Assembly (NCBI RefSeq): GCF_020740795.1
Contig: NC_067285.1
Span: forward strand, 40,460,511-40,524,510
DNA length: 64,000 nt
Reading direction: 5' to 3'
Source: Apus apus
Taxonomy: Eukaryota; Chordata; Aves; Apodiformes; Apodidae
In this document: positions 2,714-15,912 of the stretch, one piece after another
How positions within the stretch are numbered: the first letter of the stretch is position 1
Layout: each line of letters opens with the position of its first letter
The notes under the pieces: generated by a model
What the model was told of the DNA's origin: nothing
The model's database searches: none
Seen by the model: the letters and a program-made list of their open reading frames with translations, nothing else
Made by a program: the position numbers and the translations under genes

Positions 2714-3272
2714 GTCATAGAATCCCTGAATGTCTTGGGTTGGAAGGGACCTCTAAAGGCCATCTAGTCCAGCCCCCCTACAACAATCAGGGACATCTCA
2801 CGCTAGAACAGGTTGCTTAGAGCCCCATCAAGCCTGACCTTGAATGTCTCCAGGGATGGGGCCTCCACCACTTCTCCAGGCAACCCATTACAGTGATCCA
2901 CCACCCTCATAGTAAAGAACTTTTTCCTCATGTCCAACCTCAATCTACCCTTCTCTAGCTTGAAACCATCACCCCTTGTCCTAACATTACATGCCCTGTG
3001 ACCAGCTCTTCCCCAGCCTTCTTACAGGCCCCTTTCAGGTGTTGCAAGGTTGCTACAATGTCCCCCCAGAGACTTCTCCAGGCTGAACAACCCCAGCTTC
3101 CTCAGGCTGTCTTCATAAGAGAGCTGCTCCAGCCCTTAGACCATTTTTGTGGCCCTCCTCTGGACATGCTCCAACAGATCCACCTCCTTCTTGTGTTGGG
3201 GGCTCCAGAGCTGGTATCTTCTTGCCTGCTGAAGTCCAGACAGTGCAGCCTGGTGGGTGTCAGCCCCGACAC
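2714..3272 (-). mobile_element. CR1 LINE, 3' fragment
   Basis: Read on the minus strand the copy ends in the CR1 3' signature: a 'ggtcccttccaaccc'-type motif followed by a short ATTCTATG-like tail, seen here reversed at 2714-2770. It carries only the distal ORF2 and 3'UTR portion, so it is 5'-truncated. It matches the copy at 9381-9768 closely and lies in the opposite orientation. Confidence 0.85.
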
Positions 3273-4344
3273 TTCCTGCCAGTGAAGACACAGGGTAAGC
3301 GCAGAGATGGAGAGGTTTTCAAGATCACTCCAGTGAACGTAGGTAGACAGCCTGCCTGTGGAGGAAGTGCAAAAACATGAACATCTGAATCTTTAATAAA
3401 AATACAGCATTTAGTGTTATAAATGAGATCTGTTTTGCACAAAAGCTGTTGCACACAAACTTGCTGACCTGTTGGTGGGAGTTGTGAAAGGCTTTCAGAA
3501 AGGCAATTTGACTGTATCTGTGAGACCTTCCACATCCATGGGCTTGTTGTCACTTTCAAAGAACTGTAACAAGTGTGTGAAAGACCTCCTGCAAAGCTAC
3601 ACACTCTTCCTTATTGTATGTTCATTCATGTGTTTACTAATCGTATCCTTTCTATTTCTACTTTAGTAAGACCATTTAAGGGTAACTAATTTCCTCTTGT
3701 TTATTCTTGTCCTTACAGCACTAAACCACATTCATTTAGCTTGAACTCCTTGATCCATCACAGATAGAGTTTTAGAGATAGACACAGCAAAGGAACTAAG
3801 TAGAATCAGCAAGCATTTTGGGAAAAAGTATAATCAGATGTAATCATGTAGCAGTCTGTTCCTTGCCATTCCCATCAGCAACTGTTTGTTCTTGTTTCAT
3901 TTCCTCGAAAAACTCCAAGATGTATTTTTCCTTGACTTTTCTTTGATTGTTGACTTAATGTCGTCTCTGGCCCTGTAAATACATGAAGCATAAAGTAAAT
4001 TCAGGCATTTATTAATGAAGCAATTGCCATTAATACAAGCTACAGGGAGAGCAATAGGTGCTCAGAAGTTGTATATGACCTATTTTTGCTGCATCAACCA
4101 ATTGACACATGTGCAAAGACAAAGAAATCCTGTTTACAGGATTGTCCCCAGTTACAGCAGTGGAAGCCAATAGCTTAGAAATGCAGGCTGTACATCTGAA
4201 TGATACCCAGAGAGAGGAAGTCAGTCTCTTAGAGCTTGATTTTGGAAGTGTCAGGTATGTACCCAGCCTGTGCTGTCTCTTCAGCAGATGTTTGGGTGCA
4301 TCATACCTGTGGCCTTTTGCGTGGCTCAACACACAGGGAATGTT

Positions 4345-4745
4345 TCATAGAATCATAGAATCATAGGTTCACAGGGGTTGGAAGGGACCTCTGAAGACTG
4401 AAGCGTCCAACCCCCCTGCTGCAGCAGGAACACCCAGGGCAGGTCACACAGGAACGTGTCCAGACAGGTCTTTAAAGACTCCAGAGAAAGAGACTCCACA
4501 ACCTCTCTGGGCAGCCTGTCCCAGGGCTCTATCACCTTCACAGTAAAGAAGTTCTTCCTCATTTGAGGTGTTGTAGCTTCCTGTGTTGTCACTTGGTGCC
4601 TTTTTCCCTTGTCCTATCACAGGGCACCCCTGCAAAGAGACTGGCTCATTCTTGACATCCACCCTTCAGGTATTTGTAGACATTAACAAGGTCCCCTCTT
4701 AGCCTTCTCAAGGCTAAACAGCACCCAGTCTCTTATCCTTTATGA
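4345..4745 (-). mobile_element. CR1 LINE, 3' fragment
   Basis: The fragment begins with two reversed ATTCTATG-type tail units ('catagaatcatagaatcata') followed by 'gttggaagggacc'. It is 5'-truncated. It sits downstream of exon 3 of the chemokine pseudogene, in the stretch where that gene's last exon should lie. Confidence 0.85.
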
Positions 4746-4929
4746 CAGATCTTCCAAAACTAGGAGAGTATTTTAACCCCCAGGCATTGATAAATGCAGA
4801 TTTAGAGAGAAGTATTGGAAAGGATTACTAATGCTTGAAGAGGGGGAACATTTTCATGCCAAGAAATTAAAATACGCCTTCTAAAAATAGCTTTTAGCTG
4901 GAGCTGGTCTAGTAAATAAGACAATTTAC

Positions 4930-7503
4930 CTGGCCAAAATAGCCTTTACAGTGAGCTGGACACAGGGAGCAGTGGGTTCCAAACACACTTGTCTGCAGCG
5001 TTTCAGAGGAGCTCTGCCAAGGAACAAATGCAGAAGGTGAGGCCAGGTGGATCCCTCCAACTGTCATGTTTTGACATTCATCTTAGCTATTGGTTAGTTA
5101 GGAACCTGGAGGACATGGTACAGACTTTTGTTGATTAACCTGTTTTGATATTTTCCAGGTAGCATTTCTGAGAGAACAAGGGGAAAATTATTTCCCTATA
5201 CTTTTTCAACACTTGGGCATTGAAAGTTGGGTTGGGCTGGTTTTTTTTAAATGAACAATATCAGTATAGGCGCCTGTGATGCAATCTCTTTAATGAGCCT
5301 AATGGATTTTTTAGTTGTTTCTGTTCTCTGTCTGGTCATAGTTTAGGAGATCTTTCAGGAACTTAATTAGCTTGGGAACTTTTTTTTTTTTCCTCTTTAA
5401 ATCAAAGGTGGCTGAAATTACCAGTTCTTAGTGAGGTGGAACTGGGTGGCACGCAATGCTGCACAGAGGGTATGATTGTACAAATATTATTTGCTTATGA
5501 AACTCTAGTGAAAGCATAAAAACCCAGAAGTTCCCTTCTGTTTACAGGAACACATTGATCCTATTCATGTGAATAGTTCCTGATGTGATTTTAAATGAAG
5601 CATACCATTTACTCTGTACCCACTTGGATTTTGGAATTTACGTTCCACACTTCTCCCACAGGAACTGCTCGTTATGCAGTTCTGGCATTGGGAATCATAG
5701 AATGGTTTGGGTTGGAAGGGACCTAGAAGATCATCAGGTTTCAACCCCCCTGTATGGGCAGGGACACCTCCCACCAGATCAGGTTGCTCCAAGCCCCATC
5801 CAATCTGCCCTCAAACACCTCCATGGAGGGGGCATCAACAACCTCCCTGGACAACCTGTGTCATTGTCTCACCACCCTCACAGTAAAGAATTTCTTCTTG
5901 AAGTCCAACCTAAGTCTGCCCTCTTCCATTTTAAAACCATTGCCCCATATCCTCTCACTGCCCTCTCTGGTGAAAAGTCCTTCCCCAGCTTTCCTGCAGC
6001 CCCTTCAGGCCCTGGAAGGTGCTCTAAGGTCTCCCTGGAGCCTTCTCTCCAGGCTGAACACCCCAACTCTCCCAGCCTGTCTCCAGAGCAGAGCTGCTCC
6101 AGCCCTTTGATCATCTTTGCGGCCCTTCTCTGGACTTGCTCCAAGACCTCTTGGAATAACTCACAGCATTTCAAATTTTGCTACATGCAGATCAAGCTAG
6201 TGGAAATTGTTTGAATTCATGTCACTGGGATCAAGATATATCTTTTATTGATTCTTCATTGCCTAAATTATTAATTGTGCCCTGAAGGCGTTATGGGAAT
6301 CTGATCCTCCCCTCTTATGGTCATAATTAACATAGAGAGACTTTTAAAATTCTGCCTGGAAGTAGCCTCTAACATTGGCAAGAAATTGGTTCATTCCTTT
6401 GGATAGAAGGCCTAATACCTCATTCTTAGTGTCTTTGAGGCTTTGCAAGGGGTATATAATTCCACCTGAAGAAAGTCAGTAACCAGGGTGTGAAATGCTG
6501 AGTTACTTCCTCCTATTGAAGCAAGATGCTGTTTTGTACAAGTGCTCACATGATTCCCACATAACCTCCCATTCTGAATAGCCTTGGGGAGGGATGAATT
6601 TGGACCTAGTCCTCATGCACAGGCACTGGAAGCCTCTTTCCTCTGTCTTGGCCAGGGCCTTACTGTAGAACAACAATAAGCTATGTTTAGGTAAGTGAGC
6701 AATTCCATTATTCACTCATATGAAGCAAAGTGTATTCCCTTCTGTCAGCCTTATTCTTGTTATTCAGACACTCTGATTTGCTGAAGACTTTGAGATAAAA
6801 TTGACTGGGTCTGCACAACAGCAGCAGTTACATTTTTAGAGCTGTTATTATGCAAAAGCATTTGAAGTTGAACTCAGATCTCTAAGTGAAAATACTTAGA
6901 TGTTTTCATACTGCATTTGTGCCTGGCCAGATTTTACACCTAAATTACACCACTTGAACAAAGTAGGTTAATGTTATTAATTATGTCCACATATTGTTTA
7001 CTGGTTTCTTCCATGATCATCTGTGCCTGTTCTGCATTATCTTCTGCAAACTGCATAATTTGTGCTTTGAGGAAGCACCATCATCAACCTGCCTGCCAAG
7101 AAGAAAAGTACAAATAATGGAGGATGGTCACTTGGAAAAGAGATGTGTTGACATGTTTAGATTAAAGGTCCTGTCTTTATAGATACATTTCTTAAAATCT
7201 AGTGGAGACAAACATTATGGGATAGGAATAAACTCATTTCCTGTCAGAAGCGTATTTCACTCTCAGCAACTGCTGCAGCATCCTGGCAGATGACAATACC
7301 AATGAGACTGTTTCTTCTTGAATGCCAGTCTATAGAAGATGCACATCTCTTGCAAAAAGTCAACGTTCATAAGTTCATAAGTTCAAGATGCATTTACGTA
7401 TGTATATTTAGGTTATGTCAGTTCTAAGAAATCATTTTCCTACCTTCTGACCCTGCCATGAAGACCAGATAGAGAACCAAAGCACCAGCAGCAGATTTGC
7501 CAT
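4930..7503 (-). pseudogene. Decayed CXCL8-like CXC chemokine, three exon relics
   Basis: Three minus-strand exons match the intact CXCL8-like gene at 11340-13298. Exon 1 (7444-7503) encodes a hydrophobic leader beginning MANLLLVLWFSIW with a good donor. Exon 2 (6550-6662) follows a 'ttctacag' acceptor, encodes C-L-C then T-R-S-K-F-I-P-P, and ends at the donor 'gtgagc'. Exon 3 (4930-5013) is exactly 84 nt, like its counterpart, and encodes V-C-L-E-P-T-A-P then V-K-A-I-L. Against the decay-free neighbour, exon 2 is 113 nt instead of 136. The missing 23 nt shift the frame and remove the region before the third cysteine. The ELR motif is replaced by residues reading G-F-Q, and the conserved Trp of exon 3 is Cys. 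Exon 1 and exon 2 phases do not agree when the homologous acceptor is used. Exon 4 was not found. The exon 3 motif V-Q-L...V-K-A recalls chicken CXCLi2. A divergent gene with altered splicing is possible but less likely. Confidence 0.75.
5692..6150 (-). mobile_element. CR1 LINE, 3' fragment
   Basis: A 5'-truncated CR1 in reverse orientation, starting with 'catagaatggtttgggttgg' and running through the 3'UTR into the distal ORF2 segment. It lies in intron 2 of the chemokine pseudogene and explains the long open frames in both directions here. Confidence 0.85.
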
Positions 7504-9298: not shown

Positions 9299-9768
9299 GA
9301 ACCCCAGCTTCCTCAGCCTGTCCTCATAAGAGAGGTGTTCCAGTGGACCTGGTGTCCTCTGGACATGCTCCTCTTGACAGGTTGTTCAGCCTGGAGAAGA
9401 GAAGACTCTGGGGGGACCTTACAGCAACCTTGCAACACCTGAAAAGGGCCTATAAGAAGGCTGGGGAAGAGCTGGTCACAGGGTATGTGACCATGATAGG
9501 ATAATGGGTGATGGTTTCAAGCTAGAGAAGGGTAGATTGAGGTTGGACATGAGGAAAAAGTTCTTTACTATGAGGGTGGTGGATCACTGTAATGGGTTGC
9601 CTGGAGAAGTGGTGGAGGCCCCATCCCTGAAGACATTCAAGGTCAGGCTTGATGGGGCTCTGAGCAATCTGGTCTAGTGTGAGATGTCCCTGCTTCTTGT
9701 AGGGGGGCTGGACTAGATGGCCTTTAGAGGTCCTTTCCAACCCAAGACATTCTGTGATTCCATGATTT
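9299..9768 (+). mobile_element. CR1 LINE with inverted 5' segment
   Basis: The body (9381-9768) is a plus-strand CR1 3' fragment ending 'cattctgtgattccatga'. Immediately upstream, 9299-9372 is CR1 sequence in reverse orientation. Its reverse complement ends at the CR1 position where the body begins (around the 'ttgttcagcctggagaag' segment). The two pieces are therefore one insertion with a 5' inversion, the pattern attributed to twin priming in LINEs. It landed at the 3' tail of the preceding CR1. Confidence 0.8.
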
Positions 9769-11339: not shown

Positions 11340-13298
11340 TTAGGACACAGTCGGTGGTTTGTCATTTTTCCTAGAAAGAAAGAAAATGGAAAAGGAGACA
11401 GTTAGAACTTGTCCATGGAACAGGTATCATTCACTGGAACCCGTTGAAATCAACCACTGAGGGTTTGAGCTTCAGTGTCCAAGGCCCTTAAGAGCTGTTC
11501 CTGAAGCCAAGGGACACTGGAGCACCATGATCTCTTCACAGGTGCTCAATAACTGAGGGCTTCCTTAGCTTGATGTCCTACTTCACACCTCTTGGGCCTG
11601 ATATTTACACCCCTCTCCCTAAACACACACACACCCCCCATCTGGATGCCATTAGTTTTGAGAACCTGATTCTTGCTTTCTCCCATTGACAGCAAGAGAA
11701 AACCCGTCGGTTAATCCCTGGATTTTCTGAGCACTTGAGCTGCAGGTTTTCAAAATTCTTGTGCCCTCTGAGAGACGCGGCCGCCGTTCCCGTGGGGGGT
11801 GTGACACCCTGATCAATTGAACCTACTGCTGTCATTAAAGTTCAAGGCGATCACGGTGTTTGTCCCACTGAAGTGAGCACAAATGGTAGCAACTGCCTGA
11901 GGGTACAGAATCCAAGTAATTTTGGTAAGCCCTGCTCACTGAGGACAAAGGACTCACTTGTCCAGAATAGTTTTGATGACCAGCTTCACCCAGGGAGCCG
12001 TGGGCTCCAGGCACACCTCTCTGCCGTCTGTCAGGGTAGCTCTGCAACAGAGAGAAAAGGAAGGGAAAAGGTTTACTCAGGGAATTCCAAACCCTTTTCT
12101 CTCATAATACCATTCTAGGTGTACACTTAACACCTTCTCCTTTATTTTAAGCTGTATCAGTTGAGGCTGTAGCCTAACATAAGGTTGTGGGTTTTAAAAA
12201 ATGTTTTGTATCTTCTCACGTGTTCGTTTGAATGCATGAAACCCTTTGCAGGACCTGCACTCTTTGCAGGATTTCTGCTTTCTTTTTCTTCCAGCTTGCT
12301 TTTGATTTGTGATGGTGTTTAACCGAAGGGGGCTAAATCTTTACATCTTGATTCAGAAATTACGTTGCCCAGTCCATAGAAATTTTGTTCCAGTAGGAGT
12401 TCTGGAATTGTGAGCACATGCTATGGTTTGTATACTAATGGTAGCTTTGTGATCATAATGGGATCATAGTTTTTACCTAGCCATTAAGGTGGATGTATTG
12501 ATCACTTGCTCAGCATGACTCCATGCATTTAACTCTCTTCTCTTACACTGGTAGAATTCAGAGTTCTAGGAAGTTATTTGCTGTCTGATGACTGTGGATT
12601 TAGGTTGAAATATTGTACGTGTTGCTTGAAAAGCAGAAAATGGCAAGCACAACATGTGACTTAGAACATGTAGAATATTGTTTGTAAGAGCAACAAGCAA
12701 TGCAGTTCTGCATTCTGAGTAGCCGTGCCTGGTGGCTTGTCGCATCTTTTAAAGAACACTTAGGTCATCTTTACATTTCCTTCTTGTTAAGTAACCAGGA
12801 GGATTTTGCAAAAGCACTTACATGACTTCAGTGTTCTCGCAGTGAGGTCCACTCGGGAAGAGGTTCAAGTTACTAATGAACTTGGGATGGATGAACTTGG
12901 AGTGGGTGCCTATGCACAGGCACCGCAGCTCACCTGCTGAGCGGGGCAGGGCTTTGCCTGTAGAACGAGAAGGAGAAAGCAGAGGTGACTGTTTCACTGC
13001 TCCACAGGAAGCACAATATGTTCTTTTTGCTTATAGTATTGGAATAGTTACTTGCTGAACTTGTAAGACAGAGTAGTAAGTTACCCTTCAGCATTTTTCT
13101 AGTCTAGTGGGAGGTGTTCCTGCTCATAGCAGGGAGGTTGGAACCTGATCATCTTTAAGGTCCCTTCCAACCTTCACCATTCTATGATTTTCACTAGCAA
13201 CTAGTAAGGAGAGCTTTAGGAAGGATTTCTTTACCTTTTGTTCCAATAGCTGAGATCAGGAGAAGAATCAGGACAGCTGCCACAGCCTTGCCTGTCAT
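11340..13298 (-). CDS. CXCL8: CXCL8-like ELR+ CXC chemokine, four exons, complete
   Basis: This is a secreted chemokine that should attract heterophils/neutrophils through CXCR1/CXCR2-type receptors. Coding exons are 13235-13298, 12822-12957, 11958-12041 and 11340-11370, giving 104 aa. Exon 2 and 3 sizes (136 and 84 nt) match human CXCL8, and all junctions are GT-AG in consistent phase. Residues 1-21 form a hydrophobic signal peptide ([16 protein letters not shown]...). The mature part carries E-L-R directly before C-L-C, then [15 protein letters not shown], and [13 protein letters not shown], so all four cysteines and the helix Trp are present. Exon 4 adds only K-N-D-K-P-P-T-V-S and a stop. 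The leader recalls chicken K60 (CXCLi1/IL8L1) more than CXCLi2; that paralog assignment is from memory. It is intact, unlike the copy at 4930-7503. Confidence 0.93.
13098..13190 (+). mobile_element. CR1 LINE 3' tail
   Basis: A short CR1 3' end containing 'ggtcccttccaacc' and 'cattctatgat'. It lies in intron 1 of the CXCL8-like gene, opposite to the gene's direction and less than 50 bases from exon 1. Confidence 0.8.
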
Positions 13299-15342: not shown

Positions 15343-15912
15343 TAGAATCATAGAATCATACAATGGTGAAAGCTGGAAGGAACCTTCAGGATCATCAGGT
15401 TTTGAAGTCCCTGCTAAGAGCAGGGACACCTCCCACCAGACCAGGCTGCACAAGCCTCATCCAACCTGGCCTTAAACATATCCAGGGAGGGGGCAGCCAC
15501 AACCTCCCTGCGCAACCTATTCCATTACCTAATGGTGAAGAATTTCTTCCTGATGTCTAACCTAAATCTCCCCTCTTTTCAGTTTAAAACCATTACCTCT
15601 TGTCCTTTCACTGCCCTCTCTGGTGAAAAGCCCCTCCCCAGCTTTCCTGGAGCCCCTTCAGGTACTAGAAGGTGCTCTGAGGGCTCCCTGGAGCCTTCTC
15701 TTCTCCAGAACAGTTGGGGCTGAGTAGCCCCAACTCTCTCAGCCTGTCTCCAGAGCAGAGGTGCTCCAGCCCTTTGATCATCTTTGTGGCCCTTCGATCA
15801 TCTTTGTGGCCCTTCTCTGCACCCTCTCCAACAGCTGCATATCTTTCCTGTGCTGAGGGCTCCAGAGATGGACACAGGTGCAGCCTCACCAGAACAGAGT
15901 AAGAGGGGCAGA
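15343..15912 (-). mobile_element. CR1 LINE, 3' fragment
   Basis: A reverse-oriented CR1 beginning with 'atagaatcatagaatcatac', 5'-truncated. It contains an internal direct duplication of about 20 bases ('gatcatctttgtggccctt') at 15772-15815, probably from slippage. Confidence 0.85.

Follow-up and report, generated by a model that had tools for sequence, protein, structure and literature searches.

A very probable unprocessed CXCL8-type pseudogene between intact CXCLi1- and CXCLi2-type genes of Apus apus

We describe a decayed CXCL8-type gene copy, referred to here as the relic, in a 64,000-nt stretch of Apus apus DNA (the window), and propose with a probability of roughly 0.93 that this third CXCL8-type copy of a tandem set is an unprocessed duplicated pseudogene, which is nearest to CXCLi2 (9E3/CEF4) and lies between two intact genes. 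The first of these, gene B, is of the CXCLi1/K60 type and is found inside the window. The second, gene A, is of the CXCLi2 type and begins about 1.3 kb beyond the left edge of the window, on the same strand as the relic. The assignment of B to the K60 type and of A to the 9E3 type was made from gene order and sequence features known for these types, not from an alignment to the chicken genes. A first-pass annotation of the window had read the relic as a decayed CXCL8-type gene on the CXCLi2 side, which the broken frame, the lesions and the tree support, the CXCLi2 side to a modest degree, and had added that CXCLi2 was lost or being lost in this lineage. The loss of CXCLi2 is rejected, as an intact gene A is present just past the window edge, which had hidden it and thereby led to the idea of a loss.

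Results

The two intact genes were used as tblastn queries against 124 kb, comprising the 64-kb window with 40 kb to its left and 20 kb to its right. Relic exon 3 was detected on the minus strand (5012-4929) with E values of 1.9e-7 for A and 1.4e-5 for B. The match of relic exon 2 was marginal (6628-6572, minus strand; E 0.010 with A and 0.027 with B), the nearest unrelated match having an E value of 0.037. The boundaries of the relic exons were placed from splice sites (Table 1). In gapped DNA alignments to A and B, each of the three relic exons scored above all 500 shuffles, exon 2 being used as a 102-nt version. Furthermore, an ungapped control, which leaves out the row for B exon 2 (anchored on the wrong TGC), placed relic exons 2 and 3 directly behind the intact copies, and when 44 nt of A exon 2 were compared without gaps, the relic exon came third, behind both intact copies. 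Relic exon 1 stayed at background in this control: its ungapped match to B (34/64) was equalled by an unrelated place, and it was absent from the best eight ungapped matches listed for A exon 1. The identity of exon 1, which was derived in part from its position, its ATG and its donor, is probable.

Table 1. Coordinates of the relic, of the intact genes A and B, and of a repeat within the relic. Positions are those of the window, negative numbers lying to its left.
Feature	Position	Strand	Description
Relic exon 1	7444..7503	-	60 nt (61 in A, 64 in B); ATG...AAG/GTAGGA; donor score 8.3; ungapped match at background
Relic exon 2	6550..6662	-	113 nt (136 in A and B); acceptor ctacag, donor CAT/GTGAGC
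Relic exon 3	4930..5013	-	84 nt; chemokine frame open; Trp to Cys
Gene A exons 1-4	-1385..-1325, -2269..-2134, -2971..-2888, -3595..-3565	-	CXCLi2-type; all exons open
Gene B exon 1	13235..13298	-	CXCLi1/K60-type, intact
Gene B exon 2	12822..12957	-	ELRCLC
Gene B exon 3	11958..12041	-	placed by tblastn and alignment
Gene B exon 4	11340..11370	-	runs to the stop codon
Interspersed repeat	5692..6128		in relic intron 2; 80% identical to 15353-15795

Together, the tblastn matches, the gapped alignments compared with shuffles and the splice positions confirm three minus-strand exons of the CXCL8 type, as first annotated, exon 1 being the weakest of them. The two descriptions of length given at that time also held, since exon 2 is 23 nt shorter than in both intact genes, and exon 3 has the same length and a similar sequence, with differences at 20/84 sites from A and at 26/84 from B.

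Profile searches were also carried out. Separate Pfam searches with the translations of relic exons 2 and 3 matched no family at a threshold as lenient as E 10, the two sequences being only 33 and 27 residues long. A search of the whole 1.10-Gb, 110-contig assembly with the Pfam IL8 profile gave 10 matches at E <= 0.001, including A exon 2, and recovered neither the relic nor gene B at this threshold; on the contig of the window, a Pfam IL8 match lies just left of the window, at 40458240-40458344. Gene A encodes a complete ELR+ CXC product of 103 aa from four exons (Pfam IL8, E 1.6e-18), and the best solved-structure matches of this protein are interleukin-8. The product of gene B has 104 aa (Pfam IL8, E 4.3e-17).

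The coding sequence of the relic is damaged at several positions. Compared with the intact genes, exon 2 carries indels of -1, +3, +1 and -26 nt, which account for its shortening, and the third conserved Cys falls in the 26 nt that were deleted. As the end of exon 1 is in phase 0 and TAA is the first triplet of exon 2, canonical splicing would lead to a stop after 20 residues. The position of ELR is occupied by GFQ (GFQ-CLC, compared with ELRCLC in B and ELRCQC in A), CXC being retained; this loss of ELR and the replacement of the exon 3 Trp by Cys had both been noticed in the first-pass annotation and were found again here. Exon 4 was not found in 3000-4925 using four queries, as their best scores (27.0, 27.0, 19.0 and 18.0) were each lower than the maximum of 100 shuffles, and at only 31 nt a decayed copy of this exon could go undetected. 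Hence the open four-exon frame with a signal peptide, the ELR motif, the four cysteines and the Pfam IL8 match by which a functional chemokine would be recognized were not observed in the relic.

We also compared the regulatory signals of the three copies. The TATA box TATATAAG is located at -106 in A and at -109 in B, and both genes have kB matches, whereas the 300 nt above the relic contain neither the TATA pattern nor a kB match. In the 700 nt that start from exon 4, ATTTA occurs 11 times in A and 5 times in B; below relic exon 3, each of two 700-nt stretches contains 2 copies, the 3' end of the relic not being located. An inducible promoter (TATA, kB) combined with an AU-rich 3' end, as seen in A and B, was thus not observed for the relic.

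Some features count against a pseudogene. Upstream of the relic there are a kB-like stretch that deviates at one base (GGAAATTCT) and the sequence ATAAAAA. The splice sites are kept, with donor scores of 8.3, 7.3 and 9.0 compared to 7.7 to 12.4 in the intact genes, and exon 3 is still open in the chemokine frame. In favour of a pseudogene, changes unique to the relic are distributed over the codon positions as 7/7/8 in exon 2 and as 5/3/6 in exon 3. For exon 3, however, the relic and the intact genes showed no significant difference in codon positions (Fisher p 0.73), a pattern that does not prove neutrality, and the unique changes of this exon that bear on selection are few (8 nonsynonymous and 5 synonymous in the relic, 1 and 4 in A, 5 and 6 in B).

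The relationship of the relic to A and B was examined using 159 columns that comprise exon 2 from the CXC Cys onward and exon 3, the part of exon 2 before CXC being excluded. Over these columns, 43 differences separate the relic from A, 53 separate it from B and 33 separate A from B. The relic grouped with A in 86 of 100 bootstraps of a tree with a distant outgroup and 17 informative four-taxon sites, 8 of which join the relic and A, 6 A and B, and 3 the relic and B. Branch lengths were 0.35 for the relic, 0.05 for A and 0.005 for B, and the numbers of shared sites in exons 2 and 3 were 27 for the relic and A, 18 for the relic and B, and 36 for A and B. These comparisons lend modest support to a relic that is nearer to CXCLi2 than to CXCLi1. 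Like avian CXCLi2/CXCL8L2 (9E3/CEF4, CXCL8a), the relic has the corresponding exon 3 length and sequence (VQL, KAILA), acceptor and donor positions of exon 2, strand and cluster; unlike it, the relic has a broken frame and is devoid of ELR, the third Cys, TATA and kB, with exon 4 not found. In turn, the relic resembles gene B, of the CXCLi1/CXCL8L1 type (K60, CXCL8b), in CLC and in the start of exon 2 before CXC (AGGCCCTG against AAGCCCTG), yet in exons 2 and 3 it is farther from B than from A.

At an E value of 0.01, blastn aligned the relic region to A solely in exon 3, relic exons 1 and 2 falling below this threshold. With B, the alignments consisted of exon 3, interspersed repeats and 201 nt by which the two excised regions overlapped. 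Since blastn similarity between the relic and A does not extend beyond exon 3, their split was not recent, and the relic is probably an old duplicate, judging from these alignments.

Repeats are present in and around the relic. The repeat of intron 2 is presumably CR1-like. An inverted repeat pair of the interspersed-repeat type (2715-3078 and 9399-9765) flanks the relic, its copies being 95% identical over 273 nt and 92% identical over 90 nt. Farther away, to the right of the window, we observed a stop-to-stop open frame of 967 codons (about window 75318-78218) that resembles ORF2 of CR1 retrotransposons and is possibly a young CR1 copy.

The order of genes in this cluster is B, relic, A, followed by two further ELR+ CXC genes, located near -18.5 kb and -25.2 kb, which are left of A and also outside the window. 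Measured from start to start, the distance is 14.6 kb from B to A and 5.8 kb from B to the relic. For chicken chromosome 4, the available text of Wang et al. 2005 (PMC1082905) lists K60 at 51,462-51,466 kb, 9E3 at 51,475-51,479 kb and CXCL15 at 51,500-51,501 kb, the starts given for K60 and 9E3 being 13 kb apart; the order K60, 9E3, CXCL15 is that of B, A and the further ELR+ CXC genes here. In the available part of another source, the three ELR+ chicken genes are named CXCL8L1, CXCL8L2 and CXCL1 (PMC5736565). Because the gene order and the spacing of B and A are like those of chicken, A corresponds in position to CXCLi2, which makes the relic an additional copy. It is unlikely that the true orthologue of chicken 9E3 is the relic and that A, a more recent duplicate, took its place: the relic and A are both CXCLi2-side copies in the one bird genome compared, but spacing and order favour A, and the confinement of their blastn similarity to exon 3 speaks against a recent split.

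The two ELR+ CXC genes left of A (GELRCRC; -18183..-18754 and -24884..-25449) share a 572-nt tract that is 98% identical, introns 1 and 2 included. The flanks of this tract have no blastn similarity, and the exon 4 regions differ. From these sequences, the pair looks like the product of a recent gene conversion between older duplicates. A single gene of this kind, CXCL15, is listed for chicken in the available text of PMC1082905.

We also considered whether the relic could still be expressed through other splice sites. An acceptor at 6658 (4 nt downstream), combined with a donor at 6561 or 6507, keeps the frame open from the ATG of exon 1 through exon 3. A functional gene of this sort was rejected as open frames are easily obtained, 352 ORFs resulting from 1600 splice-site combinations in a count that allowed any GT and AG and had no shuffled control. 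For the same reason, and although some combinations of sites do maintain the frame, it is very improbable that the relic encodes a truncated secreted CXC peptide, perhaps an ELR-negative modulator, by means of non-homologous splice sites. Furthermore, the donors needed are weak (3.2 or 4.3, versus 7.3 for the homologous donor), and such a product would come from a copy that has lost the third conserved Cys and ELR, with exon 4 not found and the TATA box and kB match absent. Even more doubtful is the fuller proposal that the relic is still transcribed and that shifted splicing yields a short, secreted CXC peptide without ELR which modulates signalling by CXCLi1 and CXCLi2.

Finally, the suggestion that the relic is the lineage's own CXCLi2, lost or being lost, with a single inducible ELR+ chemokine of the pair remaining, is scarcely credible, for although the relic is closer to A than to B and adjoins the K60-type gene, the same strand carries, about 1.3 kb past the edge, a CXCLi2-type gene that is intact and has promoter motifs (barring an assembly error at this point), and it is the distance from B to A, not that from B to the relic, that is near the 13 kb between K60 and 9E3 in the available text of PMC1082905. 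With its ELR, TATA box, kB match and AU-rich 3' end, gene A contradicts the dependence on one inducible ELR+ chemokine that had been proposed for this lineage, and the two further ELR+ CXC genes to its left had likewise been hidden by the window edge.

Discussion

Our preferred reading remains that of an unprocessed duplicated pseudogene. The relic has homologous exons and splice sites with introns between them (exon 1 probably), and the intact paralogues A and B are nearby. Because it keeps its introns, the relic would have arisen by tandem duplication. Its function may then have been lost since A and B sufficed, after which the relic would have drifted to its present state, in which it presumably makes no chemokine. 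The recruitment of neutrophils (heterophils) by ELR+ CXC chemokines would have been left to A and B, and perhaps to the two further ELR+ genes.

The available part of Nomiyama et al. (PMC3568907) lists 3 CXCL8-group genes in chicken, 2 in zebra finch and 2 in duck, and states that one of two duplicates often turns into a pseudogene, a pattern of duplicated pseudogenes in chemokine clusters that the relic fits. These lists of gene numbers indicate that copy-number change in the CXCL8 cluster is already known. The relic copy itself is not described among the matches listed, as far as their titles and the beginnings of their abstracts go, or in the available parts of PMC3568907, PMC1082905 and PMC5736565.

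As a pseudogene in a chemokine cluster that changes rapidly, the relic is ordinary. The claimed gene loss, an effect of the window edge, is now corrected, and the bird cluster gains one dead CXCL8-type copy that is probably old. Should the relic turn out to be common to many birds, it would give a date for an early third CXCL8 gene; if not, it would reflect the routine birth-and-death evolution of chemokines.
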